Shown piece by piece: positions 11,385-33,088 of a DNA stretch of 34,282 nucleotides (positions are counted from its first letter, which is position 1; the number at the start of each line of letters is the position of its first letter). Origin of the DNA: Paludibacteraceae bacterium (GTDB taxonomy: Bacteria > Bacteroidota > Bacteroidia > Bacteroidales > Paludibacteraceae); the NCBI GenBank assembly GCA_017447875.1, contig JAFSMP010000027.1:1-34282 (forward strand). Direction: 5' to 3'. The notes beneath the pieces were generated by a model. The model was not told the origin of the DNA and ran no database searches. It saw only the letters and a program-made list of their open reading frames with translations. Made by a program: the position numbers and the translations under genes.

Positions 11385-11440
11385 CAAAATTACTGCTTTT
11401 TTGCGAGAGGGACTGACACTTTTTTTGCACGCACTGACAC
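11385..11440 (-). promoter_or_regulatory. PUL promoter 1 with tandem operator (operon A)
   Basis: On the minus strand GTGTCAGTG, then after a 21-nt step GTGTCAGTC, then 18 nt, then the -7 box TAATTTTG. No TTTG stands 19-21 nt before the -7 box; the second repeat occupies that place, as expected at an activator-dependent promoter. It starts 9 bp after the GH3 stop and implies a leader of about 60 nt. Two other copies are at 22911 and 33033. Confidence 0.8.
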
Positions 11441-11448
11441 AAGGGTCA

Positions 11449-13737
11449 TTATTTGGGCAATAACACCGGATTTACGGGTTCGGTATATTGTTTCAGGCGT
11501 ATTTTTTTCGTTAGACGGATGTCTCGGGATGAAGCAGCAAAAGCGAAAGTATATTCATCGGCAGGCAGGAGCCATTGGCTGTTGGGTTCGTCGAAGGATG
11601 CTAACAGGCGTATCGGTACACGCATCGTGAGCGTCTCGCTTTCACCGGGTTGCAATTCGTGGGTCTTGGCAAAAGCTTTGAGTTCGTGACCCATATATAC
11701 TTGCACCACTTCTTTTCCGCTGCGCGAACCAGTGTTCCGCACCGTGACGGACAGGATGACTTCATCGCCTTGGAGTTTGGCGGAAGGACGGCTATATTCG
11801 AACGTAGTATAACTCAGTCCGAAACCGAAGGGATACGCAACAGGACGCTCATTGGGATTAAAATAGCGGTAGCCGACTTGGGTACCTTCCGCATGGTCGG
11901 TATAGTGAACGAATTGGATAGGCGTTCCCCAGTTCTGTCGTTCCTTATAGTCATAGAGCGACATAGGTTGCGGGAAGTTGCGGGTAGAGGGATGGTCGGA
12001 GCAAGCGATAGGCCATGTCATGGTCAGTTTGCCGGAAGGGTTCACCTTGCCGGTAAGTATATCCGCCACACTGTTTCCTCCTTCCTCGCCGGGTTGCCAT
12101 GCTACCAATATAGCGTCGGCGTAGGCTTGCCAGGACGCGGTCTCGATGACCGAACCGGAGTTGATGATGACGATGACGGGTTTACGTTCACGTCGGAAGA
12201 TCTCACTGACGCGTCGGATGAGTTGGTGTTCATCAGCGGTAAGGTTGAAGTCATCCTCGATAGTACGATCCATGCCTTCCCCTGCTTGTCGTCCGAGGGT
12301 GATGATTGCCGCATCGGCTTGCGTCACTTCGGTTTCGATGAGTCGATCCGAGATCTCCAGTTCCGGCAGTTTGGGTTGTCCTTGATCGAGGAACCACATG
12401 AGCGGATCTTTGTCCGCCCGCAGTTTCTTGGTGGCAAAGGGGATGTAGGACTGATATATATCGGTGATACGTGGTGTCGTGGCGATGCCGGCATTGCGCA
12501 GTCCGGCCACCATATCGACAACGTAAGGGGTGTTGACGCAACCGGAGCCGAGTCCACCGGAAGCGAAGTCGTAACTATTAACACCGAAGAGTGCAATCGT
12601 GCGTATCTGAGATCGGAGAGGTAGGGTGTCGCCGAGGTTTTTGAGGAGCACCATGCCTTCAGTAGCAGACTGGCGGGTGATAACTGCATGAGCAGCAAGG
12701 TCAGGTTGGTCGGAATAGGTATAGTGGTTGTAACGCGGTGTGCGGATGATGAGTTGGAGCACACGGCGCACACAGGTGTCCACATCGGCGATGGAAAGGG
12801 TGCCGTTGTTGACGGCAGTGATGATGTCTTGTACTTGCTGCGGGTATCCGGGCATCATCAGGTCATTGCCTGCATGCACTTGTGCTTTGGTATCGCGTAC
12901 ACCGATCCAGTCGGTCACCACCACTCCATTGAATCCCCATTCACGACGGAGGATGGTGGTGAGGGCATCGTAACTCTGCTGCACGAACTGTCCGTTGATC
13001 TGATTGTACGACGACATGATGGTCCAGGGTTGTGCTTCGCGCACCATGATCTCGAATCCACGGAGATAGATCTCGCGGAGTGCTTTGGCGGAGAGTCGTT
13101 CATCTACTTTGGTTCGGTCAGACTCTTGGGAATTGACGGCATAGTGTTTGGGACACGCGCCTACACCTTGGGATTGGATTCCGCGCACCATAGCGGCACC
13201 GATCTTACCGGTGAGGATAGGATCTTCGGAGTAGTATTCGAAATTCCGTCCGCAGAGGGGATTGCGATGGATATTCATTCCCGGACCGAGAATGATGTCA
13301 CATCCGTACTCGCGCGTCTCGTTGCCGATAGCTTGTCCTACTTGTTCAACGAGGGCGGTGTTCCAAGTCGAAGCAAGGGCTGTGCCGATAGGAAAACCGG
13401 TGGCATAGAAGGTATCTGCCACGTTCTCGCGCACGGGGTCTATGTGTACCCCTGCCGGTCCATCTGCCATGACGATAGATGGGATGGCCTGTTCGTGTAT
13501 CTCCACAGTTATACCGGCCGCACCGGCTACGAGTCGTTTCTGATGACCGAGCATGGCACCGCTTCCGGCAAAGCCGTCATTGCCGCCACCCACGAGCAGT
13601 TGTGCTTTTTGCTCAAGGGACAGAGAGGCAAGGAGGGAGTCTATAGACTGATTGGTCATTGGTAATTGGTGATTTGTCATTTGTGCTTGCATAGTGGTAA
13701 TCAATAGGCATGAGATGATGATAATTGTTTTGCGCAT
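11449..13737 (-). CDS. Secreted GH3 beta-glycosidase, probable exo-beta-glucosidase
   Basis: 762 residues: signal peptide to about residue 19 (MRKTIIIISCLLITTMQAQ), GH3 N-domain, GH3 C-domain and a C-terminal fibronectin-III-like domain (about 650-745). Catalytic nucleophile Asp276 in GVVVTDW; candidate acid/base Glu487 in AGEGMDR; KHYAVN (197-202) is the substrate-binding KH motif. In a glucomannan locus the usual role is removing non-reducing glucosyl residues from oligosaccharides, but xylosidase or mannosidase activity cannot be excluded from sequence. A heptanucleotide array begins right after the predicted cleavage site (MTNHQLPMTN). It overlaps the GH26-GH5 gene by 37 bp and is the last gene of operon B; no clear terminator separates it from promoter 1. 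Confidence 0.88.
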   Translation of the reverse strand: MRKTIIIISCLLITTMQAQMTNHQLPMTNQSIDSLLASLSLEQKAQLLVGGGNDGFAGSGAMLGHQKRLVAGAAGITVEIHEQAIPSIVMADGPAGVHIDPVRENVADTFYATGFPIGTALASTWNTALVEQVGQAIGNETREYGCDIILGPGMNIHRNPLCGRNFEYYSEDPILTGKIGAAMVRGIQSQGVGACPKHYAVNSQESDRTKVDERLSAKALREIYLRGFEIMVREAQPWTIMSSYNQINGQFVQQSYDALTTILRREWGFNGVVVTDWIGVRDTKAQVHAGNDLMMPGYPQQVQDIITAVNNGTLSIADVDTCVRRVLQLIIRTPRYNHYTYSDQPDLAAHAVITRQSATEGMVLLKNLGDTLPLRSQIRTIALFGVNSYDFASGGLGSGCVNTPYVVDMVAGLRNAGIATTPRITDIYQSYIPFATKKLRADKDPLMWFLDQGQPKLPELEISDRLIETEVTQADAAIITLGRQAGEGMDRTIEDDFNLTADEHQLIRRVSEIFRRERKPVIVIINSGSVIETASWQAYADAILVAWQPGEEGGNSVADILTGKVNPSGKLTMTWPIACSDHPSTRNFPQPMSLYDYKERQNWGTPIQFVHYTDHAEGTQVGYRYFNPNERPVAYPFGFGLSYTTFEYSRPSAKLQGDEVILSVTVRNTGSRSGKEVVQVYMGHELKAFAKTHELQPGESETLTMRVPIRLLASFDEPNSQWLLPADEYTFAFAASSRDIRLTKKIRLKQYTEPVNPVLLPK
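13650..13684 (-). repeat. Heptanucleotide repeat at the mature N-terminus of GH3
   Basis: Five units on the plus strand: GATTGGT, CATTGGT, AATTGGT, GATTTGT, CATTTGT. It lies immediately after the predicted signal peptide, so the repeat encodes the first residues of the secreted enzyme. Confidence 0.9.
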
Positions 13738-15947
13738 TGTTGTATAAGTGTTATCGTGGATGAATCAGAGAGGAAGACCGAGTTGAGGCCTTGGGGTTCT
13801 TGTGCCGGGTCGCCGGTGTAGTCATCTCCTACTAGCCATTGATTATGGGTGGGTTGGGCAAATCCGCCCCATGCCCAAAAGTTACAACCGCAGATAGTCG
13901 GTTCGGTGCGCACAAGCGAGAAGATATATTGATAATAGTTTTCGCGTGCAGAAGTAGGAGAACCGGGGATAGTGGACATGCTGTCCCGCGGAAAACCAAA
14001 CTCTTCGATGACGATGGGTTTGCGGAGCGCGCGCGATATAGATAGGTGCGGCTGCAAATAGTTGAATGTTGAAGGTTGAATGTTTAATGGTTCTTTTGTC
14101 CATCCCCAGTTGTAGGGCCAGATATGGACGGTGAGGTAGTCGATATTCGGATCGGCGGAGATGCGATGGTAAAGGGCGGAGTCCATCTCGCAACCCCATA
14201 TTCCTTCCGAACCAATGGAGATGAGGTGGTTTGGGTCGATGGAACGAATGAGTGCCGAAGCCTCAGCAAGCCAATGGGCAAAACCCTCTTTCTGCGCGTC
14301 GCCGAATGCACGGGGTTCGTTACCTATCTGCCACGCCATGATAGCCGGGTCATCCGTATAGGCGGTATGCGTGTAGCGGTTGGTGCGGGAGATGATAAAC
14401 TGCACGTAGTCGAAGAACAGCGCTTGTGCCTCAGGGCTATCCGCAAACTGCGCCACATGGTTCATGAATGCTCCGTAACCGGCCTCTTCGGGTCGAGGTG
14501 CTTTGCCGTAACCGGCTTGCTCGAGGTAGAAACCATAGCCTCCGGACCACTCCCAGGAGTTATTGAGATAGAGTACCGCTTTCATGTCGCGTTTACCCAT
14601 CTCAGCCAGCAGGAAGTCGAGTCCGTCGAGGATAGTGTCATTATAGACTCCAGGGGATAGCTGGAGTGTTGGTTCCACTTTGGTCAGTACCCCTCTTTCG
14701 CCATCAGAGCCAACTAAGATACGGAGATTGGTGACTCCCAAAGCGGCAAGGGTGTCGAGTTCGGCAATGAGTCGTTCGCGGTTGCCTCCTTGTCCTTCAG
14801 AACCTAAAATGGCACCGTACCAGAGGTTGGTGCCAATATAGGAATAGGGTTTGCCGTTGAGCATAAATCTTCCGCTCTGCTGTTTGACAAAAGGCGAAGG
14901 AGCGATGTCGTTGAGGAAGAGGATATGCGGGTCGCTGTAGAGGTGCATGAACTCGCGTCCGTTGTCGGTGTCGGGCACAGGTCCGAAATGCTCTTTGGCA
15001 TCGGCATTGCGCCATGCAAGGATATAGCTCAAACCACGATCTTTGATGAGCGGCATCAGTACGCGATGCCACCACTCGGGATGCTTGGATACCGACTGAA
15101 TACCGCATTCCGTAAGGGCTACCAGTTTGCCATGTTGCGCACCATATGCACAGAGATAGTCGAGGTCTGTGCCCGCTTGTGAGAGGTAATCTTCTTCCGT
15201 TCCCCATTGATAGGCATCGAGACCGATCATATCCACGCGGTCATCACCCGGGTAGCGAGGAACAAAAGTCTCATCCGTAAAACCGCCTTGCAGATTGGGA
15301 GAATAACTCCAAACGATGTTCGGTGCAGTCAGATAGTCTTGGGTCAAGTTCCAGAGGGCGAGGTATTCTTCGGGCGTACAATGGGTGTTTCCCCACCAGA
15401 ACCAGAAGCCGTTGTTCTCATGCCACGGACGGAAGATGAAGGGGATGGGTTCGCCTTTCTCAGTCTGCAATGAAGTAAGGAACGTGCGTACGCGTGCGAG
15501 CCATGTCATGAACAGGTCATGTGTCTCGCCTTCGGATAGGATAGCCTTCACCACACCATCGGTGACATCCCAAGCCGTACCGCCTGTAACGGGGTTGCGC
15601 GGATGCCAGGAGATGGTGACGATACCACCTCGTTGATGATGACGGATGATCTCGGTGCGGATACGATCAAAGGGCACGCTGTCAAGGTTCTTGGTGTCGC
15701 CTACTTCGATACCGCCCAGGTCAAAGCCCATGACGGCAGGCCAGTCACCGCAGGTCTCCAGCACGTCACTGCGACCGTCTTCATACGCCCAACCGATGCC
15801 GTAGAACGGGTCATCCTGATGTCCGAACATAGTACCGCGCTGCTGCAAAGAGTCCAGACGGTTCAATAACTGTTCTCTACCGTTTTGCGGTTTATGGCAT
15901 GCTGCCAAGCAACATACCATAGCAAGTACAAAAACTATTTTTCTCAT
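13701..15947 (-). CDS. Bifunctional GH26-GH5 mannanase lipoprotein
   Basis: 748 residues. Lipoprotein signal with lipobox LAAC, lipidated Cys17. Residues ~22-345 are a GH26 domain (FGHQDDPFYG; acid/base Glu177 in FRPWHENNG; nucleophile Glu280 in ALTECG). Residues ~352-745 are a GH5 domain, most like the mannanase subfamily GH5_7 (acid/base Glu544 in IGNEPR; nucleophile Glu649 in VIEEFG). Both catalytic pairs are intact, so two beta-mannan-cleaving sites on one anchored chain are predicted. A heptanucleotide array encodes LNIQPSTFN in a GH5 loop (621-629). ATGA overlap with GH36 upstream; 37-bp overlap with GH3 downstream. No binding module or C-terminal tail. Confidence 0.9.
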   Translation of the reverse strand: MRKIVFVLAMVCCLAACHKPQNGREQLLNRLDSLQQRGTMFGHQDDPFYGIGWAYEDGRSDVLETCGDWPAVMGFDLGGIEVGDTKNLDSVPFDRIRTEIIRHHQRGGIVTISWHPRNPVTGGTAWDVTDGVVKAILSEGETHDLFMTWLARVRTFLTSLQTEKGEPIPFIFRPWHENNGFWFWWGNTHCTPEEYLALWNLTQDYLTAPNIVWSYSPNLQGGFTDETFVPRYPGDDRVDMIGLDAYQWGTEEDYLSQAGTDLDYLCAYGAQHGKLVALTECGIQSVSKHPEWWHRVLMPLIKDRGLSYILAWRNADAKEHFGPVPDTDNGREFMHLYSDPHILFLNDIAPSPFVKQQSGRFMLNGKPYSYIGTNLWYGAILGSEGQGGNRERLIAELDTLAALGVTNLRILVGSDGERGVLTKVEPTLQLSPGVYNDTILDGLDFLLAEMGKRDMKAVLYLNNSWEWSGGYGFYLEQAGYGKAPRPEEAGYGAFMNHVAQFADSPEAQALFFDYVQFIISRTNRYTHTAYTDDPAIMAWQIGNEPRAFGDAQKEGFAHWLAEASALIRSIDPNHLISIGSEGIWGCEMDSALYHRISADPNIDYLTVHIWPYNWGWTKEPLNIQPSTFNYLQPHLSISRALRKPIVIEEFGFPRDSMSTIPGSPTSARENYYQYIFSLVRTEPTICGCNFWAWGGFAQPTHNQWLVGDDYTGDPAQEPQGLNSVFLSDSSTITLIQQCAKQLSSSHAY
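14061..14088 (-). repeat. Heptanucleotide repeat inside the GH5 domain
   Basis: Four units on the plus strand: GTTGAAT, GTTGAAG, GTTGAAT, GTTTAAT. In frame, it encodes a loop shortly before the GH5 nucleophile strand. Confidence 0.9.
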
Positions 15948-18022
15948 TTCAACTCAAATATACGGGATGGATAGTCGATAGCATATTCTGTGGACAGCGG
16001 AATGTCCAATCCGACGGACATGAGGTATGCGCCGGTGAAGGACTGACCGTGCAGCGCACATGGTTGTTCGCCGTGACGGATATTGCGTTCGGTGAGTGTG
16101 TACGTGCGTGTGGGGTCTAATCCTGCCAAACGGATGCGACGGGATGCTTGTTTCATGAACGAACTGAGTCCGTAGGCAAAGAGAACTGCGTGGTCTTTAT
16201 TATCGTTTATGTACATAAGCGAAGCCACCTGCTGTTTCTCTACAACCGGCACGGGTTCGTACGGTGAAACAAGGCGGTATAAATTACCCAACTGAATCAG
16301 TTCACGCAGGGCTTTGTAGTCATGGATGGCGGTTGTACATTGTGCCCGTTCGGTCTCGGTCATGTGGGCAGGTTGCAGTTCCATACCGAGCCGTCCGGAC
16401 ATCGCCACATCGCAGCGGAACTTGATAGGTGTCGTGCGCCCGGTCATGAGATACGGACTGCCCCCGATATGTTGCGCCATGGCGTTGGATGGGAAGAAAT
16501 AGGAGGTTCCCCATTGGATATAAACGCGTTGCAGGGCGTCGTTGTTGTCGGATACCCAGAACTCATCGAAATACGGCATCAGTCCGTAGTTCGCCCGTCC
16601 CCCTCCCGATGCGCAGTTCTGGATGGTTACGTTCGGGTATTTGGCGCGGATACGTTCAAGGGTCTTGATGAGTCCAAGATGATAGTCCACATACAGATTC
16701 GACTGTTTGTCGCGGGGTAAGTAAGTAGAACCGCAGTTCTGTATGGACGCATTGGCATCCCACTTGATGTAAACTATCTCGGGGTTATTGGTCAGCAACG
16801 TATCGACGAGGTTGAAGACAAAGTCCTGCACCTTGGGATTAGTCATGTCGAGTACTAACTGCGTACCGCCACGACCCAGTTTGAGTTCGCGTCCTCGTTC
16901 TTGGAGTACCCATTCGGGATGTTTCTCAAATAGTTCGGAAGTGGTATTAACCGCCTCGGGTTCGATCCAGATACCGAATTGGATATGCCGTTCACGAGCT
17001 GCATCGGTGAGGGCTTTGAGCCCGTTCGGCAGTTTGCGTGTATCCACTACCCAGTCGCCCAATGAAGAGGAGTCGTTGTTACGCGGATACTTGGAACCAA
17101 ACCAACCGTCGTCCATCACGAATAGTTCGCCGCCGAAGGACGCGATGTCGTTCATCATGGCGATGATACGTTCTTCGGTGATATCGAAATAGATTCCTTC
17201 CCACGAGTTGAGGAGGATGTTACGTGTCGCATTGCCGTTGTGCATCATGCCGCAGTTACGTGCCCAGCGGTGGAACGCGCGCGATACGCCGCCCATTCCT
17301 TCCGTCGAATAGGTATAAGCCAGATGCGGTGTGGTGAAGGTCTGCTTGGGCTCTAAGATATACTCCGATGCCATGGGGTCTATACCGGCATAGAAATGAA
17401 AACCTTTCTCATCGGTAGCCGCCACACGTATCTCGAAGTTCCCGCTCCAGCAAAGCGCCGCACCGAGTACGCGACCGTAGTTCTCTTGGGGTACGCCATC
17501 CAGCGAAATCATCACTTCGGGTGCATCCAGATGCGCATTGCGTGCGCCATCGGTGTTTCGGATGGATTTGACGCCGCGCGTCAGACGCTCAACTGTCGGC
17601 ACACCTTCCGCAGCCCAGTTTCCATGCAGATGCAACAGGTGGGGATCATCTCCCTCGATAGGCAGATAGCCGCTATCGAAGCGCTGCAACCGAACCGGTT
17701 TCTTCTCCGTGTGACGGATCTCGTACCATGTCTCGGTTATATCCACCTCCTTGTATTGACGCACATGAAGGGTCACATAGAACGGCTGCACTATATCTTG
17801 GGTGCGTATTACCGTTTCTTTGTATTGCGCATGGTCGAGATAAGTTGTGTCCTGCGCCCGTAGTTGCAGACTCTGATCTCCGTCGGCGTGCTGCACCAGC
17901 AGCGCAGGAAGATGGATATGGTCGATGTCTCCGAAGGTGGGTAACATCTCTATTGCATGCAAACGTGCGCCCACACTGAGGCAGGCGCACATAATAGATA
18001 GATATATTAACGAGCGTTTCAT
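15944..18022 (-). CDS. Secreted GH36 alpha-galactosidase
   Basis: 692 residues with a signal peptide (MKRSLIYLSIMCACLSVGAR, cleavage near LHA). An N-terminal beta-supersandwich is followed by the (beta/alpha)8 catalytic domain. Nucleophile Asp422 in YIKWDANAS; acid/base Asp492 in FWVSDNND; CASGGGRANYG is the family's conserved loop; MDDGWFGSKYPRN and WIEPEAVN also match. It removes alpha-1,6-galactose side chains, which fits galactomannan. GH36 enzymes in PULs are usually periplasmic, and there is no lipobox. It lies 9 bp after the CE7 gene and overlaps GH26-GH5 by ATGA. Its signal-peptide DNA is nearly the same as that of the preceding CE7 gene. Confidence 0.92.
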   Translation of the reverse strand: MKRSLIYLSIMCACLSVGARLHAIEMLPTFGDIDHIHLPALLVQHADGDQSLQLRAQDTTYLDHAQYKETVIRTQDIVQPFYVTLHVRQYKEVDITETWYEIRHTEKKPVRLQRFDSGYLPIEGDDPHLLHLHGNWAAEGVPTVERLTRGVKSIRNTDGARNAHLDAPEVMISLDGVPQENYGRVLGAALCWSGNFEIRVAATDEKGFHFYAGIDPMASEYILEPKQTFTTPHLAYTYSTEGMGGVSRAFHRWARNCGMMHNGNATRNILLNSWEGIYFDITEERIIAMMNDIASFGGELFVMDDGWFGSKYPRNNDSSSLGDWVVDTRKLPNGLKALTDAARERHIQFGIWIEPEAVNTTSELFEKHPEWVLQERGRELKLGRGGTQLVLDMTNPKVQDFVFNLVDTLLTNNPEIVYIKWDANASIQNCGSTYLPRDKQSNLYVDYHLGLIKTLERIRAKYPNVTIQNCASGGGRANYGLMPYFDEFWVSDNNDALQRVYIQWGTSYFFPSNAMAQHIGGSPYLMTGRTTPIKFRCDVAMSGRLGMELQPAHMTETERAQCTTAIHDYKALRELIQLGNLYRLVSPYEPVPVVEKQQVASLMYINDNKDHAVLFAYGLSSFMKQASRRIRLAGLDPTRTYTLTERNIRHGEQPCALHGQSFTGAYLMSVGLDIPLSTEYAIDYPSRIFELK

Positions 18023-18031
18023 ATTCAGTAA

Positions 18032-20593
18032 TTATTGCATTATCTGCCCCAGTACACTATATTCTCTACCATCCCGTACAATCACCAGTTGCCCGTCGCG
18101 AAAGATCTTGGTAACGGTGACGGGTGATAGGTTACCGGTTACGGTTTCTATCTCTGTCGGCGTGTCCGGTGTATTGTCTATGCGGGCATTGAAGAACGCC
18201 ATATAGGTGGTCGTCCAGTCCGAAGCGGCAGCGTGTCCGTTGAAGGGATTGATGGAATACGCTTTGTCGGTCACTTGTGTCAACAGGTTGTAGGGAGCAA
18301 TGTTGAGATGCGGACCATCGGTGTTATCTTGCAAGGAGAAGTTGGTAATCACCGGACACGTGATCCACTTGGCGAAGTTCTTGGTGTCAAAATAACTCTG
18401 GTGCGCCAGCAGTACCGCCTTGCCTGTCTCGTAGTCGGAAGGATAATTGGTATTGATCCAGTTATTAAACACATTCGTCGGCCAACCTACAATCTCCATG
18501 GTGTGGATGAAGTCTGCGTGACCGGTGATAGAGGGTGCGATGGCACGAATATATCCGTTGCTCAACGCCGCACACACGTATGTCAGACATCCGCCTTGGC
18601 TACCACCGGCTGCGAAGATATTCTCCTTATTCACCTTCGCCTTCGAGCGAACGAAATCCACTGCACGACGGGTGTCGAGATAGACGTAGCGATAATAGTG
18701 TTCGTTGTTGTCTCCTAAGCGGTACGCATAGAAATCGACAGAACTCTCATCTTCCGGGTCAGTGCGGTATTTCTCACTACCGTTCTTGGCTTTATCGAGC
18801 GTCTGACCACGCGCCGAGAAGCGGAACTCACACCAACCGGTTTCGGTTGCAGAAGGCATCGTCAACTTACCACTCTTATCAGTTCCGTGGAAATGGATGA
18901 TGCATGGATAGGATCCGTCCGCTTTCGGTTCGGCGTAGTAGCCGTAAATATACACAGGTTCGCTGCCAACTGTCTCAGGTACCGATTTGTACTTCACCTC
19001 ATAGATATTACGCGCGTCAGACTCTTTACCGGGCAGCAGCGTCAACTCCGCATCAATAGGAATTGCAGCCAGTTGCTCCAACCAGCCGTTCCAGAACGTT
19101 CCGAAATCTTCTTGTGAGTCATCGGGACTAATGATGGCTGTCGGGTTATAACCGATGATGTAGGTGCAGATCGCGTTATTGTTTGCCTTGGCGGACATGC
19201 GGTAGAAACCCGGGACAAGATCGGGGAACTCAATCGATACCGTTTTTGTCTCACCGGCCGCCAGTTCAACGGGTTGCGAATAGGTGTTATAATCCGTGAA
19301 CATATCGGTCATGAGCGTTACATCGATGGATGTCTTGACACTGTTTGCTTCGTAATTGGTGAAGGTAACAGAAAGATTGGGAGTTCCATCTGTCAATTCC
19401 CAGGCACGAATATCTTCTTTATCAAATGTAGCGGTCAATAAGTACTCGCGCAACGGGTCAATGAGTTGCACAGCCGTGACGGTGTAGCCGATACCGGATA
19501 CCACGAGTCCATTCGCTTTGAGAGTATTAGCCGCTGTTTCGGTAAGCGTATATTCATAGTAATCGCCCCAATTAGTCGGCAGTTTCTCGAAGGTATTGGC
19601 ATCCGCTATAGTCTGCCATGTGCCATCCACGATATGTCCCTGCGCACCGTTCTTCATGTTCGCAAAGCATATACGCAGCCGCATACCGGCTTGCACTTGA
19701 GCCAAAGAAGCGGCTTCCACCTTGAGCCACTCGTTCGTACCGCTCCAGTTGATGGACTGCGAACCGGACCAAACGGTTGTGATAGCATTGCCGCGTTCGG
19801 GACTTACAGCTTGTTTGTGCGCTAACTCTACTTTGGTGACGGTAACACCGGTTCCGGAGAGATAGAGTTTCTTGCTGGAAGCCATTTGGGTAACCATCGT
19901 ATCCGCCACCAACAGGCCATAGACGTGCGGCATCTCATCGTTTTTACATTGATATCCAACATATCCTTTGCTCCATGCCACACGTACCTGCGGCCAAGAA
20001 GCAGACGGATCTTTCTCGCTGACAGAGACATAGATACTATCCCCTTCCACGATCTGTCCGATGAACGAAGCCATCGAACATAACTGACTCCAACCCATCA
20101 CTTGTTCGCCTTCCCACATGGTGGTGCGGACAGTGATATACTGTTGCTCGGGTTCAGGCGTAGTCTCATAGTGGGTAAGCGTGATCTTATTCGCCGTATA
20201 ACCGGCTCCCTTGACGACGAGATAGTGACTCACTGCTATACTATCCAGCATCGTTTGCGTTAGCGGCAAGGTCGCTACATGCGGAGCCTCCTGACCGGAT
20301 AATCCATAGGTATGCGGGTCTTCAAACGTCACCCAGCCCCAGGATGCATTCACAAACTGCAGAAAAACTTGCGGCCACTGAGTGCCGGAGCTTATAGCCG
20401 TCACATAGACGTTAATCTCATCACCGGCTACAGCATCTGCCAATAGTGCTTTATCGACCTGCGCATAGCCGGCAGACCAATCATCGGCACAGGTGAAAGA
20501 CTCGGAATAAAGCGTCGTTTCCGAGGCATACAAATGTGCGCCCACAAAGAGGCAGGCGCACAATAAGCACAAGAACGATTGTATACGTTTCAT
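18032..20593 (-). CDS. Secreted CE7-type acetyl esterase with three N-terminal modules
   Basis: 853 residues. Signal peptide 1-23. Three modules at 27-141, 154-258 and 271-378; the first is close to the first module of the esterase in operon A (SFTCADDWSAGYAQV against EFTCADDWSSGFVQI). Linker beta-sandwich 384-485, then CE7 hydrolase 490-800 with Ser665 in GGSQGG, Asp756 in SLQDN and His787 in FNGHA. The end carries the shared tail (DGQLVIVRDGREYSVLGQ). Together with the operon A enzyme it gives the locus two esterases of one architecture, perhaps for different acetyl positions or chain lengths. A heptanucleotide repeat encodes TVTGNLSPVTVT before the tail. Confidence 0.85.
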   Translation of the reverse strand: MKRIQSFLCLLCACLFVGAHLYASETTLYSESFTCADDWSAGYAQVDKALLADAVAGDEINVYVTAISSGTQWPQVFLQFVNASWGWVTFEDPHTYGLSGQEAPHVATLPLTQTMLDSIAVSHYLVVKGAGYTANKITLTHYETTPEPEQQYITVRTTMWEGEQVMGWSQLCSMASFIGQIVEGDSIYVSVSEKDPSASWPQVRVAWSKGYVGYQCKNDEMPHVYGLLVADTMVTQMASSKKLYLSGTGVTVTKVELAHKQAVSPERGNAITTVWSGSQSINWSGTNEWLKVEAASLAQVQAGMRLRICFANMKNGAQGHIVDGTWQTIADANTFEKLPTNWGDYYEYTLTETAANTLKANGLVVSGIGYTVTAVQLIDPLREYLLTATFDKEDIRAWELTDGTPNLSVTFTNYEANSVKTSIDVTLMTDMFTDYNTYSQPVELAAGETKTVSIEFPDLVPGFYRMSAKANNNAICTYIIGYNPTAIISPDDSQEDFGTFWNGWLEQLAAIPIDAELTLLPGKESDARNIYEVKYKSVPETVGSEPVYIYGYYAEPKADGSYPCIIHFHGTDKSGKLTMPSATETGWCEFRFSARGQTLDKAKNGSEKYRTDPEDESSVDFYAYRLGDNNEHYYRYVYLDTRRAVDFVRSKAKVNKENIFAAGGSQGGCLTYVCAALSNGYIRAIAPSITGHADFIHTMEIVGWPTNVFNNWINTNYPSDYETGKAVLLAHQSYFDTKNFAKWITCPVITNFSLQDNTDGPHLNIAPYNLLTQVTDKAYSINPFNGHAAASDWTTTYMAFFNARIDNTPDTPTEIETVTGNLSPVTVTKIFRDGQLVIVRDGREYSVLGQIMQ
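18111..18145 (-). repeat. Degenerate heptanucleotide repeat before the tail of the CE7 gene
   Basis: Five 7-bp units of form TnAnnGG on the plus strand (GTAACGG, TGACGGG, TGATAGG, TTACCGG, TTACGGT). In frame, in the linker just before the conserved C-terminal tail. Confidence 0.7.
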
Positions 20594-20616
20594 TGTATTA
20601 ACTCTTTACACAATTA

Positions 20617-20760: not shown

Positions 20761-20767
20761 AATTTAC

Positions 20768-22837: not shown

Positions 22838-22910
22838 AAATGTATAGATTTTTAAAATTATTATTCGGGTTAAGTACACGGTTAAGTATACACGTATTCA
22901 AAATACGCTG

Positions 22911-24400: not shown

Positions 24401-24405
24401 AAGCG

Positions 24406-24486
24406 ATTACACTTTTCAATATGTTTTTGTCGGTCAAAATTACACTTTTCAATGATTTTCAACCACCAAAAACTACACTTTTCAAA
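24406..24486 (-). repeat. Three leader repeats at exact 33-bp spacing before the ATPase gene
   Basis: On the minus strand TTGAAAAGTGTA(A/G)T occurs three times, starting at plus-strand positions 24406, 24439 and 24472, each 33 bp from the next (three helical turns). They fill the predicted transcribed leader between the -7 box and the ATG. This suggests a protein- or RNA-binding array, perhaps for autoregulation, but the role is not known. Confidence 0.85.
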
Positions 24487-24495
24487 TTTTCGCTG

Positions 24496-24526
24496 CAAAG
24501 GTAGTGCTTTTTTTTGATATACGCAA
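24496..24526 (-). promoter_or_regulatory. Promoter of the ATPase gene
   Basis: TTG, 20 nt, TACCTTTG on the minus strand: the Bacteroidetes consensus. It is nearly identical over 32 bp to the promoter of the AraC gene at 34016 (ATATCAAAAAAAAG in both spacers). Confidence 0.8.
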
Positions 24527-24560: not shown

Positions 24561-24563
24561 TTT

Positions 24564-24599
24564 ATGTACCATTTAGTCATTTACCATGTACTATTTATT
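24564..24599 (-). repeat. Degenerate 7-bp repeat after operon C
   Basis: ATGTACC, ATTTAGT, CATTTACC (8 bp), ATGTACT, ATTTATT. It is less regular than the other arrays and reaches into the stop codon of the last gene. Listed as a probable decayed member. Confidence 0.4.
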
Positions 24600-25878: not shown

Positions 25879-25880
25879 AA

Positions 25881-27617
25881 TTAATTCCAACCTGGGTTAT
25901 TCGTGTTAATATTTGAGTTTGTGTTTATTTCCTGTTGCGGAATAGGGAAAAGGAGGTTACGCTCGGTGCGGTTCTTGTTGACTCCTCCGTCATCATTACC
26001 TCCTATGGCATTCATCGCATCGAGGTAGATACCCCAGCGGATAAGGTCCCAACGGCGGTCTGCTTCGCAAGCCAGTTCTTTGGCACGTTCTTCGATGATG
26101 GCAGAGCGGCGTGCTTCTTTGGTTGTCAATGCTCGTTTGCCTCCCATCGAGGCGCGATCGGCATTGGCACGAGTCCGTACTTTGTTGAGTTGAGCGAGCG
26201 CATCGGATGGTTTATCCAGTTCGTTCAGAGCCTCGGCATAGATGAGTATCACATCAGCGAGGCGTAGGAATGGCCAGTTGGCATCCGCATTATCGATGGC
26301 ATCATTGGTGACATCCTCATACTTGGTAGTGAAAGCGAGACATTGCGCATCCGCAGAATAGTAATAATTGACCCCGTCCGCAAAGATACCGGTCGGGTCT
26401 TTGACCCAATTGCCATCCATGTCTTTACCGGTAGCCATAATGGTGTATTCCTCATCATAGGGATAGTAAAAACCACTATTGGATGCTTCCTGCGTATAGA
26501 CACGCCAGCGGTGTTTTACGCCCTGCGTGATACGATAGTCATCGTGGTCGAACAGATCATACCAATGGCGTGTGCAACCGGTCCAACCGCCTGACTGGAT
26601 ATAATCCGAACCCGGTGCGGTCTTGTAGCCCTCGTATTGGGTATGCACCGAATTCTTATAAGTCGCGTCTCCACTGACGGAACCAATGGAGAACAAGAAC
26701 TCCGATGCATTTGCATTGGCTTTAGTCCAAAGCAGGTTATAATCCGACAGGGTGTAACTGCCGAACGTACCGTTCACTACCGCTTCCGCCCAGTCAGCTG
26801 CTTGTTGGTAGAGTTGCATGGGGTCGAGGGATTCGTAACCTGCAACCGTCTGTTTATACAGCGTCTGCGTTTGCAAGGGTGCATACTGCTTGTTACCGCT
26901 GATGTCGGAGGTATAGGGAGCACCGGTGCGGATAGTCACTTCCGTTCCTGCGGGCATTGCACAGGCTGCTTCGGTGGCATACACTTTAGCGAGCAGACCA
27001 GCTGCTGAACCGGCATTCACGTGACCTGTTTGGTAAGCATCGTCGGTATTCTTGTAGAGCAGCCGGGTGGCGGACTCCAATTGCGCAATGATATAATCAT
27101 ACACTTCGGTCACCGGTTTGCGCGGTTGGTTACGGTCGAAGTTCTCCGTCTCGGGTTGGATAGGAACCGCACCGTAGGCACGTACGAGCAGGAAATAGGC
27201 GAAGGCTTTCTGGAATCGCAGTTCACCGATGGCATTGTTCTTTTCTTTATCGGTGATGTTCTTCATCGCAGCGATATGCCGCTCGGCATTGTTGGCACGA
27301 CCAATAAGACCGTAGCAGCCTTTCCAGAGTGCATCTACAAGGTCTGTCTCACCTTGGAAATTACCGGCTCCGAACGTACCGAACAACCAGTCCGGACCGG
27401 AGATATAATCGGCATCGAACTCCAGCATACGGGGAAAATAGCCCCAGCAGAACATATCGTAGATCCACTTGGAATAGACACCCGTCACGAGTTGGTCGCA
27501 TGCTTCTTTGCTGTCACCTATATTGGCGTCAGTAACGAGCGTATCGGGGTTCTCTTCAATCCAGGAGCAACTGCTCATTGCGAAAACCGCTATTAAGATA
27601 TAGATTACTTTTTTCAT
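25881..27617 (-). CDS. SusD-like glycan-binding lipoprotein
   Basis: 578 residues. Lipoprotein signal with the cysteine in AMSSCSW. It has the SusD/RagB features: an N-terminal helical part (ACDQLVTGVYSKWIYDMF), YDYIIAQLESA in the tetratricopeptide-like region, RLADVILIYAEALNEL, then LNKVRTRANA and ERAKELACEADRRWDLIRWG near the C-terminus. It caps the SusC transporter 5 bp upstream and binds oligosaccharide at the surface. Substrate inferred from the locus as mannan oligosaccharides. Confidence 0.95.
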   Translation of the reverse strand: MKKVIYILIAVFAMSSCSWIEENPDTLVTDANIGDSKEACDQLVTGVYSKWIYDMFCWGYFPRMLEFDADYISGPDWLFGTFGAGNFQGETDLVDALWKGCYGLIGRANNAERHIAAMKNITDKEKNNAIGELRFQKAFAYFLLVRAYGAVPIQPETENFDRNQPRKPVTEVYDYIIAQLESATRLLYKNTDDAYQTGHVNAGSAAGLLAKVYATEAACAMPAGTEVTIRTGAPYTSDISGNKQYAPLQTQTLYKQTVAGYESLDPMQLYQQAADWAEAVVNGTFGSYTLSDYNLLWTKANANASEFLFSIGSVSGDATYKNSVHTQYEGYKTAPGSDYIQSGGWTGCTRHWYDLFDHDDYRITQGVKHRWRVYTQEASNSGFYYPYDEEYTIMATGKDMDGNWVKDPTGIFADGVNYYYSADAQCLAFTTKYEDVTNDAIDNADANWPFLRLADVILIYAEALNELDKPSDALAQLNKVRTRANADRASMGGKRALTTKEARRSAIIEERAKELACEADRRWDLIRWGIYLDAMNAIGGNDDGGVNKNRTERNLLFPIPQQEINTNSNINTNNPGWN

Positions 27618-27622
27618 AGCAT

Positions 27623-30600
27623 TTAGAATACGAAGTTAATACCTAAACTATACGAACGCGCGGAGGGATATGAGTAACTGTCCACTCCGGGGCAGGCAGG
27701 GTTGGAACCACCGGCATTGACATCGGGGTCAAACCACGAGTATTTGGTGAACGTATAGACGTTATTGACCGTGAAGTTGAAGTTGATCTTCTGTAGCCAC
27801 TTGGCCGGATTGTTCCAGTCGTAACTTAGCGTGATATACTTGATCTTGAGGAACGAACCGTCTTCTACATATCGGTCAGAGATAAGCCACGTACGGGTAT
27901 AGCCGGCTGTCGCTTTCGGCCACAACGCTCCGTTCGGGTTCTCTGCCGTCCAGCGGTGGTCGTACGCCTCTTGGGTGATGTTTCCGTGGCTCGACATGGT
28001 GATGTCCGTCAAGTTGTAGTTGAAGATGTCATTACCGTGCGAGCCTTGCAACATAAAATTGAGACTCAGTCCTTTCCAACTCAATCGGCTCGTCAAACTA
28101 TATGTAAAATCGGGGTTGGTGTTACCGATAATGGTACGGTCGTCTGCGGTGATCTGTCCGTCTCCGGTAAGGTCGGCATAGATGATTTCACCCGTAGCAG
28201 GGTCAATACCGTCTTCTTTGTAGCCATATAATGTTCCGATGGGACAACCGTTGCGTTGCAGGAACACCTGGTCGGCTTTGGACCATAAGGCGGTTGCATA
28301 TTGGTCACCATCCAGTCCGCCAATACGGTTGCGGTTGAGTGAGAAGTTGGCATCGAGTTGCCATTTCCAGTCTTTCAGATCGATTGCCATTGCACCGATA
28401 GACACTTCGACACCTTGGTTAATCACCCACCCGCTGTTCACCATCATCTGACTGAAACCGGACGAGGAGGGGATGGTGACGTTCTGCAATAGATCACGCG
28501 TCTTCTTCCAGTAATAATCAACGGTGAGGTTGATGCGGTTATTGAGGAAACCGACATCGATACCGGCATCCGCTTGGTCGGTCGTCTCCCATTTGAGGTC
28601 GGGATTAGCCGGTCCGCGCCAGTCGATCATTGCCAAACCTCCTTCCAGCGAACCGTCATACGGGTACTTGGCTGCATCATAGACCGTCAGTGTGCGATAC
28701 GCTCCGATAGCTTGGTTACCTGTCTCGCCGAACGACACACGCCATTTCCAGTTACTGAGCACTTGCTGATCTTGCATCCACGGTTCATCTATCATACGCC
28801 AAGCGAACGCACCTGAGAAGAAAGGTGCCCATTTATGGTTGGCAGCGAACGAAGATGAACCATCCACACGCGCACTCGCCGTGAATAGATACCGTCCCAT
28901 GAGTGTGTAGTTGACACGTGCAAGAAACGACTCCAGGGACTGCACGGTCGAACTGCTATTCACTACCGCTTTATCCAGCGCCAAGGCTATGTTCGCATCT
29001 TTGGTCATGTCGTTCGGGAAATTAGTGACGGTAGTACTTTCGTTCGATCCCCAACCTTTCTCAAACGTCACACCGAGCACGGCATTGATGCTGTGGTTCT
29101 CGTTGAACTTATGATCGAAGGTCAATAGGGTCTCACTCGTGACGCTCTTCCATATACTCGATGCCTTGCCCGCCTTGCCGTTGTACGGCGATTTGCCTTC
29201 CTGTGTGTGGCGGTCGTAATAGGTAGAACGATGTCCGTCATTATAACCGAGACCAAGGTTCTGACGCAACTTAAGCCAAGGTTGGATAGTAAACTCCACG
29301 AACGAAGACGAGAACCAAGAGATTTGACGTAGTTCATCTTTCGCACCGTTCACATAATTGAGCGGATTAGCAGCCAGCCAGTTCAGTTCGTCCAACTGCT
29401 CTGTCTGCGTATGCGGGCCGTAGGTAGGCGGGAAAATCAACGCCGAACGGATGATACCTGTGTTCTCCGAGTTCGTACGCTGGAAATCGGTGGTGGCGTT
29501 CGTGAAATGCTGGCTTGTACCTATCTCCAACCACTTGGTGATATGCCAGGCGGTGTTGATACTCAGTCCGTAACGCTTGTATCCGGTGTTCTTGATGATA
29601 CCACGTTGATCCGCATACGAACCCGAGAAAGCGTAATAACCTTTGTCTGTACCGCCGCTCACCGAAGCGTTGTACTCCTGCGTATAACCGAGTTGGTAGA
29701 TCTGATCTTGCCAGTTCGTACCGGCCACTTCATCTACATTGCCGTACTTATCCGTTCGCAGTCCCGGGTTCAGGAAGTCCTCCGGTGCAGGATTATAGGT
29801 TCCTTGCGAATACACATATCCACTGCCGATATACGGGTACTCCCATTCTCCGCGATAAGGAGTCTGCCCGGTATATCCTTCGTATAGACGGCTATTAGCC
29901 GCTTGTTCATTGCGGTACAAGGCATAGTGGTAGGCATCAAGCATCTGCACTTTGCGACCTATCTGCTGAATACCGCCTTTGATATTCAGTTCTACACGTG
30001 GTCGACCTTCTTGTCCTTTGCGGGTAGTGATGATGACTACACCGTTTGCACCGCGGCTACCGTAGATAGCAGTAGCGGATGCATCTTTCAGCACCTCAAT
30101 CTTCTCAATATCGTTCGGGTTGATCATCGACAGCGGGTTCTGACTCTGGTTCTGACCCTCATTGGCGCCCGACGACGGTACGCCGTTGGGGTCGGTACCG
30201 AACGGGATACCATCGACTATATAAAGAGGTTGCGAAGAGGTGGTGAAGGAGTTAGCACCACGCACCGTGATACTCACGCCGCTACCCGGAGCTCCGTCCG
30301 AAGCTTTGACGTCCACACCGGCGATCTTTCCTTCGAGACTCTGAGCCACATTCATCTGTCCGCCGGACATGATGTCTTCGGATTTGATCTGACTGACCGA
30401 ACCGGATAGGTCCCGTTTCTTCATCGTGCCGTAACCAACTACCACCACTTCTTCCATCAGTTGGGTGTCTTCCTGCAGCGTCACATCCACGCGCTCTTTG
30501 CCGCGGATATTGACTACTTGGGTCTTGTAACCCACCATGGAGATTTGCAGGATGAACTTACCCTCCGGAACATCGAGGGTGAAGTTACCGTCCATGTCGG

Positions 30601-30754
30601 TGATCGTTCCCACTTGCGTGCCCGCCACCAACACACTGGCACCGATAGCCGGTTCGTTGTTTGCCGCCCCGTCCAGTACGCGACCGGAAACAGTGGTCTG
30701 GGCACTTAGCGCACACGTAAGCGCACATGTAATAATAAGGAATAATTTGCGCAT
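27623..30754 (-). CDS. SusC-like TonB-dependent outer-membrane oligosaccharide transporter
   Basis: 1043 residues. Signal peptide MRKLFLIITCALTCALSAQ, then a carboxypeptidase-D-like domain (TTVSGRVLDGAANNEPAIGA to about residue 95), TonB-box region and EEVVVVGYGTMKKRDLSGSV, plug domain with QPLYIVDGIPFG and IEKIEVLKDASATAIYGSRG, then the 22-strand barrel ending in SLGINFVF. It imports oligosaccharides in a pair with the SusD-like protein that follows 5 bp later. It starts one base after the stop of the preceding module gene. Confidence 0.96.
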   Translation of the reverse strand: MRKLFLIITCALTCALSAQTTVSGRVLDGAANNEPAIGASVLVAGTQVGTITDMDGNFTLDVPEGKFILQISMVGYKTQVVNIRGKERVDVTLQEDTQLMEEVVVVGYGTMKKRDLSGSVSQIKSEDIMSGGQMNVAQSLEGKIAGVDVKASDGAPGSGVSITVRGANSFTTSSQPLYIVDGIPFGTDPNGVPSSGANEGQNQSQNPLSMINPNDIEKIEVLKDASATAIYGSRGANGVVIITTRKGQEGRPRVELNIKGGIQQIGRKVQMLDAYHYALYRNEQAANSRLYEGYTGQTPYRGEWEYPYIGSGYVYSQGTYNPAPEDFLNPGLRTDKYGNVDEVAGTNWQDQIYQLGYTQEYNASVSGGTDKGYYAFSGSYADQRGIIKNTGYKRYGLSINTAWHITKWLEIGTSQHFTNATTDFQRTNSENTGIIRSALIFPPTYGPHTQTEQLDELNWLAANPLNYVNGAKDELRQISWFSSSFVEFTIQPWLKLRQNLGLGYNDGHRSTYYDRHTQEGKSPYNGKAGKASSIWKSVTSETLLTFDHKFNENHSINAVLGVTFEKGWGSNESTTVTNFPNDMTKDANIALALDKAVVNSSSTVQSLESFLARVNYTLMGRYLFTASARVDGSSSFAANHKWAPFFSGAFAWRMIDEPWMQDQQVLSNWKWRVSFGETGNQAIGAYRTLTVYDAAKYPYDGSLEGGLAMIDWRGPANPDLKWETTDQADAGIDVGFLNNRINLTVDYYWKKTRDLLQNVTIPSSSGFSQMMVNSGWVINQGVEVSIGAMAIDLKDWKWQLDANFSLNRNRIGGLDGDQYATALWSKADQVFLQRNGCPIGTLYGYKEDGIDPATGEIIYADLTGDGQITADDRTIIGNTNPDFTYSLTSRLSWKGLSLNFMLQGSHGNDIFNYNLTDITMSSHGNITQEAYDHRWTAENPNGALWPKATAGYTRTWLISDRYVEDGSFLKIKYITLSYDWNNPAKWLQKINFNFTVNNVYTFTKYSWFDPDVNAGGSNPACPGVDSYSYPSARSYSLGINFVF

Positions 30755-30755
30755 A

Positions 30756-31913
30756 TTATTGAGCAGATATTAGTTCTATTTTGGTTAATGTAAAGCCGAC
30801 ACCGGTGAGGACAAATCCTCGTGTCTTGACGGCATCGAGTGCTACGGGGTCAAACAGGTACACTACGTCATTGCCATCCAACGGATACCAAACAGGCTCG
30901 GCTGAACCGGTTATCTCATTCCATGTATAACCGTTACGCAGCGACAACTGAGGGGTCACGCCCGCTGCTTTCGCCGCGGGGTCTATCTTATAGGAGATAA
31001 GGAGCACATCGTTCTCGGTGCTCTTTTGGAAAGGCGCTGCCGAGATACGCAGGTTGCCACTCCAGTCGTTCGGAAAGGCTTTCTCGCCGTGGAAGATCTC
31101 ACCCGGTTGCAACACATATTCCTTCGGTGCCCGTTGTGCCTGACTGAGGTCTTCACTCGCTTCCCCCACGAACTGCACGATGCCAATCTTATCGAGCCGA
31201 TAACCCGTACCTCCGACACGCAAGGCGGTGTTCATTCCACCACCGGCTAACTGGATCTTCAGCAGCGGTGCATTATCAAGGATATACCATGTGAACGCTT
31301 CGCCTCCAACCGGAGCGCCGTCCACCGTCTGGTCAATCGCATTCCATGTGAAGTCCATCAGTTTGAGCGAAGCACCTGCTTGCACTTTGCTGATATGAAA
31401 ACGTAAGGCGTCGCCTTCGTGCAGGTTCATCAAACTCTGCGCCGGTATCTCCGCACTCACGCTCCAGTCGGCTTTCATCTGCACCGGCGTACCTCGCCAA
31501 ACGATCGTCTCTTGGTAATCCGCCGCATCTGCTATCGTCACATACAAGATTCTATAGTCATGTCCGCCGATGGCTATACCGTGTGTACGAGCGATCGCTA
31601 ATATATCGTCCGTCAAGGTCATTCGGAACGGACCCTTGATGCCAAAATAAGCATACTCGGGTGCGACGCCCTGCCAGTTCTGCGGGTTCTGAAATGCTCC
31701 CTGCGCCGTACCTTTGGCACGGTCATGATACACCGTGATGATGTCTCCGGCTTTCGCATCCGTAAAATGCCGCGCTTCCAGCACGATGTTATCTTTCCAC
31801 GCCTTGCCTATCGTCTTCGGTCCTACCAATATCGTCCGCTCGATAGCGTGCGCTGATAGAGTACAGAGTACAGAATACAGAGTACAGATTAATATGGTTC
31901 GAAAAGACTTCAT
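30756..31913 (-). CDS. Three-module secreted protein upstream of SusC, candidate glycan-binding protein
   Basis: 385 residues built almost only of three modules at about 25-128, 134-248 and 266-385 (markers ETIVWRGTP, GDALRFHI, LRVGGTGYRLDKIGI, GFVLTGVGFTLTKIEL). Unlike its relatives it has no C-terminal tail. The signal peptide core ICTLYSVLCTL is encoded by a heptanucleotide repeat. ATGA overlap with the GH26 gene; one base separates it from SusC. A carbohydrate-binding role is inferred from module type and context; no catalytic residues are recognised. Confidence 0.7.
   Translation of the reverse strand: MKSFRTILICTLYSVLCTLSAHAIERTILVGPKTIGKAWKDNIVLEARHFTDAKAGDIITVYHDRAKGTAQGAFQNPQNWQGVAPEYAYFGIKGPFRMTLTDDILAIARTHGIAIGGHDYRILYVTIADAADYQETIVWRGTPVQMKADWSVSAEIPAQSLMNLHEGDALRFHISKVQAGASLKLMDFTWNAIDQTVDGAPVGGEAFTWYILDNAPLLKIQLAGGGMNTALRVGGTGYRLDKIGIVQFVGEASEDLSQAQRAPKEYVLQPGEIFHGEKAFPNDWSGNLRISAAPFQKSTENDVLLISYKIDPAAKAAGVTPQLSLRNGYTWNEITGSAEPVWYPLDGNDVVYLFDPVALDAVKTRGFVLTGVGFTLTKIELISAQ
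31859..31886 (-). repeat. Heptanucleotide repeat encoding a signal-peptide core
   Basis: Four units GAGTACA, GAGTACA, GAATACA, GAGTACA on the plus strand. On the coding strand they give the hydrophobic stretch CTLYSVLCTL of the signal peptide. Confidence 0.9.
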
Positions 31914-33007
31914 CTCATCAGCCCTTTCACTTCCTCGCGGTCAAGCACCACGCCGCTGTTGAATGCATTTTTCCACCATGTCTCTCCGGCAAACTGATGC
32001 TCATCGCTCTGACCTCTGTTATACGCCGCGTCATACCATGTCATAAACCAGCTCCAACGGCTGCCTTCCGCCCAGATGTCACTCCACAGCGACATATCCA
32101 CATCGTCGCCGTTACCGCACTCCGCCAGCGTGATCATCTTATCGGGGTACAACCTCGTCAGCGACTCAAACTCCTTCTTCAACGGGTACTGCAACGCGTA
32201 GTAGTTATCGCGTCCGATGATGTCCACCACGTCCGCACCCGGATACCAGTCCGTGTCACCCACTTGCGAGGTCCACACCCAGATAAGGTTGTTCAGTTTA
32301 TGATAATTGACGAGACGATCGTACATAAACCGCCAAAGTTTCTTGTATGTCTCCGTACCTTGTGCGCCCCACCAGAACCAGGGCTTGCCGCCCGCAAACT
32401 CGTACGTGTTACCTGCCGCTTCGTGCAACGGACGCCAGATAACCGGAATACCGAGTTTCTGCATTTTCTTTAAGTACCCCGCCACTTGGTCAATATCCTT
32501 CACCATCTGCTTGTACTCCGCCGAACTCGGGTCATTGATCTTCGACGCATCAAAACTCGTCTCACCCGGCTTGATTCCCGGACTGCAGGTGCGGTTCACA
32601 CCGTCGTTCGCCAACATCTGCCAGTGCCACATAGCGCCTACGATGCCACCGGCGTTGTACCACTCCGTCACAGGGGTCATATCGCTATAATCGAGCCAGC
32701 CCGACGGGTTCACGTCCTTCGATGCATGGATATTCATGAAATCGAACACGTTCAGCGCAGGGTAATGTCCCGTCCACCGGTACACGTTCTCCGCCTCGCG
32801 CGTGTTCCAATCTATATTCGCTACCACGCCCGAGAGAGCGTTCTTGCCGTACTGCGTAGTCAGCAGCGACCATAGAGACTGAACCTCTGCGGTCGCGTTC
32901 TTGTTACATAACGTATACGACACTTCGGGCTCCGGTGTAGGAGCTTCCGCTTGCGTACAACTGGGACTCAAAAAAAGAAGTAATAGGGGTAAAAATCGGT
33001 GCCTCAT
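31910..33007 (-). CDS. GH26 beta-mannanase lipoprotein
   Basis: 365 residues. Lipoprotein signal MRHRFLPLLLLFLSPSC with lipidated Cys17, then a proline/glutamate linker. Single GH26 domain with acid/base Glu196 in IWRPLHEAAG, WFWWGAQG after it, and nucleophile Glu296 in TLAECGNG. It cuts beta-1,4-mannan internally, probably at the cell surface. It is the first gene of operon C, about 20 nt from the predicted start of transcription, and overlaps the next gene by ATGA. Confidence 0.92.
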   Translation of the reverse strand: MRHRFLPLLLLFLSPSCTQAEAPTPEPEVSYTLCNKNATAEVQSLWSLLTTQYGKNALSGVVANIDWNTREAENVYRWTGHYPALNVFDFMNIHASKDVNPSGWLDYSDMTPVTEWYNAGGIVGAMWHWQMLANDGVNRTCSPGIKPGETSFDASKINDPSSAEYKQMVKDIDQVAGYLKKMQKLGIPVIWRPLHEAAGNTYEFAGGKPWFWWGAQGTETYKKLWRFMYDRLVNYHKLNNLIWVWTSQVGDTDWYPGADVVDIIGRDNYYALQYPLKKEFESLTRLYPDKMITLAECGNGDDVDMSLWSDIWAEGSRWSWFMTWYDAAYNRGQSDEHQFAGETWWKNAFNSGVVLDREEVKGLMR

Positions 33008-33032
33008 GGTGCGTCTGTTTTAAATCACGATG

Positions 33033-33088
33033 CAAAATTACTGCTTTTTTTGCAAACAGACTGACACTTTTTTTGCACGCACCGACAC
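33033..33088 (-). promoter_or_regulatory. PUL promoter 3 with tandem operator (operon C)
   Basis: Minus strand: GTGTCGGTG, 21-nt step, GTGTCAGTC, 18 nt, TAATTTTG, with the same A tracts as promoters 1 and 2. It lies in the 84-bp gap between the AraC gene and the GH26 gene, ending 4 bp from the araC stop codon. The leader is only about 20 nt. Confidence 0.8.

Follow-up and report, generated by a model that had tools for sequence, protein, structure and literature searches.

Binding to direct repeats is largely a trait of the AraC family (PMC9723621). In the accessible parts of the published work, the XylS and MekR sites yield a period of 21 bp and those of AraC also consist of paired half-sites (PMC4514859), and for the hybrid two-component system (HTCS) regulators of Bacteroides thetaiotaomicron the predicted motifs are direct repeats with an average spacing of 21 bp (PMC3878776, Ravcheev 2013). 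The galactomannan locus BACOVA_02087-02097 of B. ovatus is described there as being under the HTCS bacova_02097 (PMC5217682). The 21-bp direct-repeat architecture is therefore already known for AraC-type DNA-binding domains. Here we analysed a stretch of 34,282 nt from a Paludibacteraceae bacterium (contig JAFSMP010000027.1 of assembly GCA_017447875.1, hereafter the window), in which three operons are each headed by a nearly identical promoter block. These blocks are very likely the operators of the adjacent AraC-family protein (33092-33982, minus strand), which would control a β-mannan locus as one regulon; we infer the binding, the activation and the ligand.

All three blocks lie on the minus strand and share one layout, namely GTGTCRGT, 13 nt, a second GTGTCRGT, 19 nt and the −7 box TAATTTTG, with the starts of the repeats 21 nt apart. 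In P3 (33033-33088) the distal repeat GTGTCGGT is at 33088-33081, the core TGCAAAAAAA at 33077-33068, the proximal repeat GTGTCAGT at 33067-33060, and the −7 box at 33040-33033. P2 (22911-22966) has GTGTCAGT as both distal (22966-22959) and proximal (22945-22938) repeat, the core TGCAAAAATT at 22955-22946 and the −7 box at 22918-22911. P1 (11385-11440) has GTGTCAGT at 11440-11433 and 11419-11412, the core TGCAAAAAAA at 11429-11420 and the −7 box at 11392-11385. The original prediction had placed the blocks on this strand at these positions, had counted 18 nt after a 9-mer repeat (equal to 19 nt after the 8-mer), and had pointed to one-base differences in P1 that compensate each other; all of this was borne out. 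The conserved unit itself is not the 9-mer that had been proposed, but a longer one that includes TGCWAAAAWW directly upstream of the proximal repeat. The araC stop codon is 3 nt from the third block, and not 4 bp as had been given.

Promoters recognized by σABfr have been reported to carry a −7 element, TAnnTTTG, and a TTTG at −33 (PMC7366714, accessible part). The −7 box of P1, P2 and P3 conforms to the former, whereas the −33 TTTG is missing from all three; the original prediction had noted its lack at 19-21 nt, and over the wider range of 17-23 nt upstream of the −7 box there is no start of either TTTG or TTG. In P3 a TTTG is found at 16 nt, too close to be a −33 element. The promoters of araC, of an ATPase gene, of a GNAT gene and of a barrel gene proved to be plain, as had been noted, with TTG starting 23 nt before their −7 box TACCTTTG. 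That of araC (34016-34046, minus strand) consists of TTG, 20 nt and TACCTTTG (box 34023-34016) and contains no GTGTCRGT, and no sign of autoregulation through the same motif was seen in it.

Pfam and NCBIfam scans of the window proteins were used to assign the genes behind the blocks, all on the minus strand, with operon limits set from gene order. Operon 1 (24595-33007), headed by P3, encodes a GH26 enzyme, the 30756-31913 protein, SusC, SusD and the 24595-25890 protein. Operon 2 (11449-22879), headed by P2, encodes a 703-aa protein whose likely start is the ATG at 22837, an AXE1-type esterase, GH36, a GH26/GH5-like enzyme and GH3. Operon 3 (4434-11318), headed by P1, encodes another AXE1-type esterase, GH130, a sugar transporter of the major facilitator superfamily (MFS), an epimerase of the N-acylglucosamine 2-epimerase type and a mannose-6-phosphate isomerase. 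The 703-aa, 30756-31913 and 24595-25890 proteins had no Pfam match. The genes behind all three blocks belong to one β-mannan pathway, and the SusC/SusD pair, the GH26 enzyme and the downstream mannan enzymes identify the locus, as judged from sequence, as a β-mannan utilization locus. The B. ovatus locus is similar in having GH26 mannanases, GH36, SusC/D, a phosphorylase, a symporter and an isomerase (PMC5217682). It differs in its HTCS, in place of which the window has a putative one-component AraC regulator and three operators, and the accessible part of that report makes no mention of GH3, of two AXE1-type esterases or of a mannose-6-phosphate isomerase, all of which are present here.

The putative binder is a protein of 296 aa with a Pfam HTH_18 match (E 1.4e-23). 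Its C-terminal domain of about 100 aa contains two helix-turn-helix (HTH) motifs, and an N-terminal cupin domain of the AraC/RhaR sensing and dimerisation type is predicted. The predicted structure resembles the AraC and RhaR domains, and its predicted fold is that of a classic AraC; virulence regulators such as ToxT and Rns were also whole-chain matches, with rmsd of 8-14, because they share the AraC fold. Direct half-sites about 21 bp apart, which mark AraC/XylS operators, are found at the blocks, and this AraC would be their binder. With E. coli AraC at araI1-I2, XylS at Pm, and MekR, the system would thus have in common a cupin and two-HTH protein, two direct half-sites of two boxes each, and the 21-bp period, as far as the accessible descriptions go. 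It differs from them in its Bacteroidota σABfr promoter and in the operator letters GTGTCRGT/TGCWAAAA. In E. coli AraC the proximal half-site lies at the upstream promoter element, and the placement here is the same. The Bacteroides HTCS regulons resemble it in that they have an AraC-type DNA-binding domain, control glycan loci and show direct repeats with a mean spacing of 21 bp (PMC3878776, accessible part). An HTCS, however, fuses a periplasmic sensor, a histidine kinase and a receiver to the AraC-type domain; here there is a single protein without sensor kinase or receiver domain, in which Pfam recognized only the AraC-type HTH. CgrA, from the carrageenan locus of Zobellia galactanivorans, likewise belongs to the AraC family, and its host needs it to grow well on the polysaccharide (PMC5698469), but that organism is a marine flavobacterium, the substrate is another one, and no operator is described for CgrA in the accessible part of the report.

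We propose that an AraC dimer would bind the two direct half-sites, which lie 21 bp or two helical turns apart, in an operator of the form TGCWAAAAWW-GTGTCRGT preceded by a second GTGTC half-site. The proximal repeat would occupy the place of the σABfr −33 TTTG. Because the −7 box is kept and the −33 box is lacking, P1 to P3 are expected to be weak without an activator, and the bound dimer may substitute for the −33 contact and activate in a class II-like manner. A proximal half-site at −33 with an intact −7 box and no −33 box would be the layout of a class II-type activator, as established for the AraC family. The protein might instead bind but repress, with the proximal half-site blocking polymerase until ligand releases it, and a repeat overlapping −33 suits steric repression equally well. 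We regard this as very improbable, since without the −33 TTTG derepression would leave a weak promoter; CgrA, moreover, is reported to act positively (PMC5698469, accessible part). As to the signal for the proposed activator, the cupin domain may sense a cytoplasmic manno-oligosaccharide, for example mannobiose or mannosylglucose. This domain suggests a small cytoplasmic ligand, and cytoplasmic sensing is probable because the protein lacks a sensor kinase and a receiver domain. A manno-disaccharide made by the locus is our best guess at the ligand class, offered tentatively and more apt to be wrong than right.

The spacing of the motif was examined in 35 contigs of the same genus (882 kb), comprising the window, 31 others with an AraC orthologue, and three (G093_C129, G095_C87 and G137_C171) chosen because a site was already known there. 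Exact GTGTCRGT before TANNTTTG occurred 40 times at a distance of 19 nt (N19; 4 of these from the three chosen contigs), 13 times at N40, where the distal repeat falls, and nowhere else from 5 to 51 nt. One-mismatch matches numbered 9 at N19, 3 at N40 and at most 2 at any other spacing. With up to one mismatch at N19 before any TANNTTTG, there were 49 sites in 29 genomes, including 28 of the 32 genomes with an orthologue, and eleven genomes had at least two sites. The genes that follow encode GH26 (25 sites), the 703-aa type (5), a 431-aa type (4), SusC (3), an esterase (2), SusD (1) and GH26/GH5 (1), and 8 are unassigned. Two mismatches are present in the sites of G008 and G021, and in G109 (L110 / L221), where the AraC orthologue match has one internal TGA, the site that follows it differs at one position (GTGTCATT). 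Among 48 distinct sites of the genus, counted from the T of TAnnTTTG, GTGTCRGT occupies −27 to −20. Positions −37 to −28 were not used for site selection; at −37 to −34 they read T (46), G (47), C (34) and W (44), at −33 to −30 A (48, 48, 44 and 48), and at −29 and −28 W (48 and 48). Conservation in relatives is thus higher for the operator letters than for the spacers. Within the distal half-site there are 11 bp from the start of GTGTC to that of TGC, an offset at which a single monomer could place its two HTHs in consecutive major grooves; several pairings are possible for the monomer half-site.

Occurrence of the motif followed that of the AraC orthologue. Among 178 genomes of the genus, 69 had an AraC match with E of 1e-60 or better; the 32 with at least 63% identity (two partial) were taken as orthologue genomes, relatives of 34-59% were set apart, and a partial 59% AraC in G143 could be either. 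GTGTCRGT-N18..20-TAATTTTG occurred 37 times in 29 of the 178 genomes, with none for the reversed control and about 1 expected by chance. It was present in 24 of the 32 orthologue genomes and in 5 of the 146 others (Fisher p = 3e-18, relatedness not corrected). The motif recurs in the gap behind araC in relatives, and G022 and G030, in which the genes directly after araC are unlike those of the window, have two sites each.

The complete pattern is rare. In the assembly of the window (G000; 2,245,835 bases in 70 contigs, 77% complete), the relaxed pattern with spacers of 10-14 and 15-21 gave 3 matches and the reversed pattern 0, against a chance expectation of about 6e-7 from base composition. 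A search with the extended operator that tolerated as many as three mismatches again returned P1 to P3 alone, and a looser search with the distal 19-mer alone added six places with 3 mismatches (control 1). Many matches before unrelated genes, which would have spoken against a local regulon, were not seen in this 77%-complete assembly. Across a sample of 393 Bacteroidales genomes, which included 3 from the genus, the exact two-repeat pattern was found in G000 only. Outside that sample, members of the same genus such as G029 have it once, and a looser form, sought among 61 closer relatives, also gave one match in G029. Whether other promoters are generally preceded by a 21-bp repeat was also examined, using 820 promoter-like sites in 2.46 Mb with mannan-type sites removed. 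Lag 21 was just mildly enriched (best cells 4-6, mean 1.05) and the 27/21 cell itself was 0, so no general 21-bp rule is claimed.

Beyond the genus, the 80 named loci were the best 80 of 442 found, with AraC relatives of 59-79%, and all but three were titled Bacteroidales, Paludibacteraceae, Prevotella or Prevotellaceae. Of these, 28 were same-genus contigs overlapping the set of 35, and a few of the other 52 may still be of the genus. Exact sites in the 80 loci numbered 31 at N19, 12 at N40, 1 each at N39 and N41, and 0 elsewhere from 5 to 61, with 0 for the reversed control; 23 loci had an exact site and 30 a site with at most one mismatch. Two-copy sites with at most 4 mismatches in all were found in 13 of the 52 loci, 15 at N19 with period 21, 2 at N20 with period 21, and 0 in 37 other combinations. 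When a weight matrix built from 47 same-genus sites was applied to the 52 held-out loci, 24 sites reached at least 15 bits, while Markov-resampled sequence and reversed sequence each gave none, and 15 loci had a site of at least 18 bits. Some of the sites in these loci are near-copies (L241, L243).

We also inspected loci in which AraC has diverged. Three genomes of the genus (G117, G186 and G017) have a related mannan SusC (53-68%) with AraC relatives of just 42-48%. By eye, G117 has GTACTATG, 21 nt, GTGTCCAA, N19 and TACCTTTG, and G186 has GTGCCATA and GTGTTAGA 21 nt apart from start to start, followed by N19 and TATCTTTG. Among 20 loci with AraC relatives of 42-50%, 10 carry GTATTAGT, with at most one mismatch, at N19 before TANNTTTG in the promoter divergent from araC, and all 10 (L055:1-1446 and nine others) have GTCGG a few bases upstream. 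The following gene begins, in 9 of the 10, like a phosphorylase-like gene that Pfam assigned to GH94 in the single case tested. By these sequence features, this is a GH94-linked sister AraC group with candidate operators of the same geometry in other letters. K230, D250, N269 and Y289 are fixed in 13 AraCs of the mannan clade and different in 10 sequences of the GH94 clade, and the structure model places N269 in the second recognition helix. N269 and D250 are kept in the three diverged mannan-type AraCs and do not explain the changed operator letters there.

That some other regulator binds the sites, such as an HTCS encoded elsewhere, and that AraC is a mere neighbour, deserves consideration, since HTCSs have AraC-type DNA-binding domains with predicted motifs of direct repeats about 21 bp apart (PMC3878776) and one controls the B. 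ovatus β-mannan locus (PMC5217682; accessible parts of both). The 19 proteins of the window that were scanned include no HTCS, and no search for HTCSs was made in the remainder of the genome. Against such a regulator, the motif goes with the AraC orthologue, is still there in G022 and G030 despite their different next genes, and has different letters where AraC has diverged beside homologous mannan genes, which leaves this alternative very improbable. It is extremely improbable that the likeness comes only from promoter segments that were recently duplicated or exchanged by gene conversion, and not from a shared regulator: the blocks are 84-90% identical over 58 nt, with spacers alone at 72-84% against a mean of 60% for within-genome pairs, but identity ends at the block edges (upstream 60 nt 13-23%, downstream 60 nt 27-47%), the same letters and spacings precede other genes in other species, where the spacers differ, and the operator letters stand out above spacers in relatives.

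Several observations weigh against the assignment of the blocks to AraC. Because araC and the mannan genes are tightly linked, co-occurrence alone cannot separate the binder from its targets. No site within one mismatch at N19 was found in 50 of the 80 loci and none of at least 18 bits in 37 of the 52, and single one-mismatch matches turned up at other spacings in both the 35 contigs and the 80 loci. Of the genomes with an orthologue, G099 keeps TGCTAAAATT without GTGTC, and on the 19-kb contig of G009 no site could be recognised. The pair of half-sites is not intact in every case, as the distal repeat next to araC is degenerate in many relatives, perhaps from its overlap with the end of the coding sequence. 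The motif also occurs in five genomes that lack an orthologue: the G116 site adjoins a 48% AraC relative, carries the flanking letters of that relative and looks like its site, the G137 motif precedes a gene on a 3.7-kb contig, and those in G032, G173 and G175 look like chance. G017, with a mannan locus and an AraC of 42-43%, showed no clear site by eye, and N269 is unchanged where the operator letters differ. The local AraC regulon of the original prediction is nonetheless supported by the single pathway behind the blocks, the tracking of the orthologue, the spacing in 13 to 15 of the 52 loci and the re-lettered geometry, and AraC as the binder, which had been marked as inference, is favoured by the comparative data.

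Other features of the window were also observed. Between operons 1 and 2 lies the gene for the AAA_14/DUF4143 ATPase (23033-24400, minus strand), which has its own plain promoter (box 24503-24496) and is outside the regulon. Downstream of its −7 box, TTGAAAAGTGTA occurs three times (24400-24510, minus strand) and is perhaps the site of another regulator. A 31% relative of this ATPase is present in G008, between the MFS and epimerase genes. A repeated domain of about 110 aa (W.G ... GD.I.V ... GLV..G.GY) with no Pfam match, judged by eye from the translations and with some tblastn cross-hits, seems common to five window proteins, namely the three Pfam-less proteins and the N-terminal parts of both esterases (9159-11318, 18032-20593, 20768-22879, 24595-25890 and 30756-31913). 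Four minus-strand proteins (9159-11318, 18032-20593, 20768-22879 and 24595-25890) end in a similar C-terminal tail of about 25 aa (GQL.I.R.G.EY...G), which we take to resemble a type IX secretion sorting tail; NCBIfam scans of three of these proteins gave no sorting-tail match.

Among the titles and abstracts listed in a literature search, none described this operator or a one-component AraC that controls a β-mannan locus. Since HTCS, XylS and MekR sites have the same 21-bp period, the kind of control is known, and the locus is a well-supported new example of it. A wider proposal, to which we give slightly less than even credence, is that rumen-type Bacteroidales have a subfamily of one-component AraC activators for which the proximal half-site of the dimer stands in for the −33 box, at a fixed 19 nt upstream of the −7 box. 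Such proteins would control β-mannan loci where B. ovatus uses a periplasm-sensing HTCS, with the signal moved into the cytoplasm, and their GH94-linked sister group would use the same geometry with other letters. If true, the two groups would form a natural series for the specificity code between AraC and DNA. The locus offers a testable complete regulon, with a putative binder, three operators and their targets, for hemicellulose use in an uncultured gut or rumen lineage, in which a one-component AraC would take the role that an HTCS has at the β-mannan locus of B. ovatus. The fixed geometry of N19 and 21 bp provides a practical search rule for the activator-dependent promoters of the group, and the specificity of protein for DNA can be tested directly with the re-lettered operators that accompany diverged AraCs.

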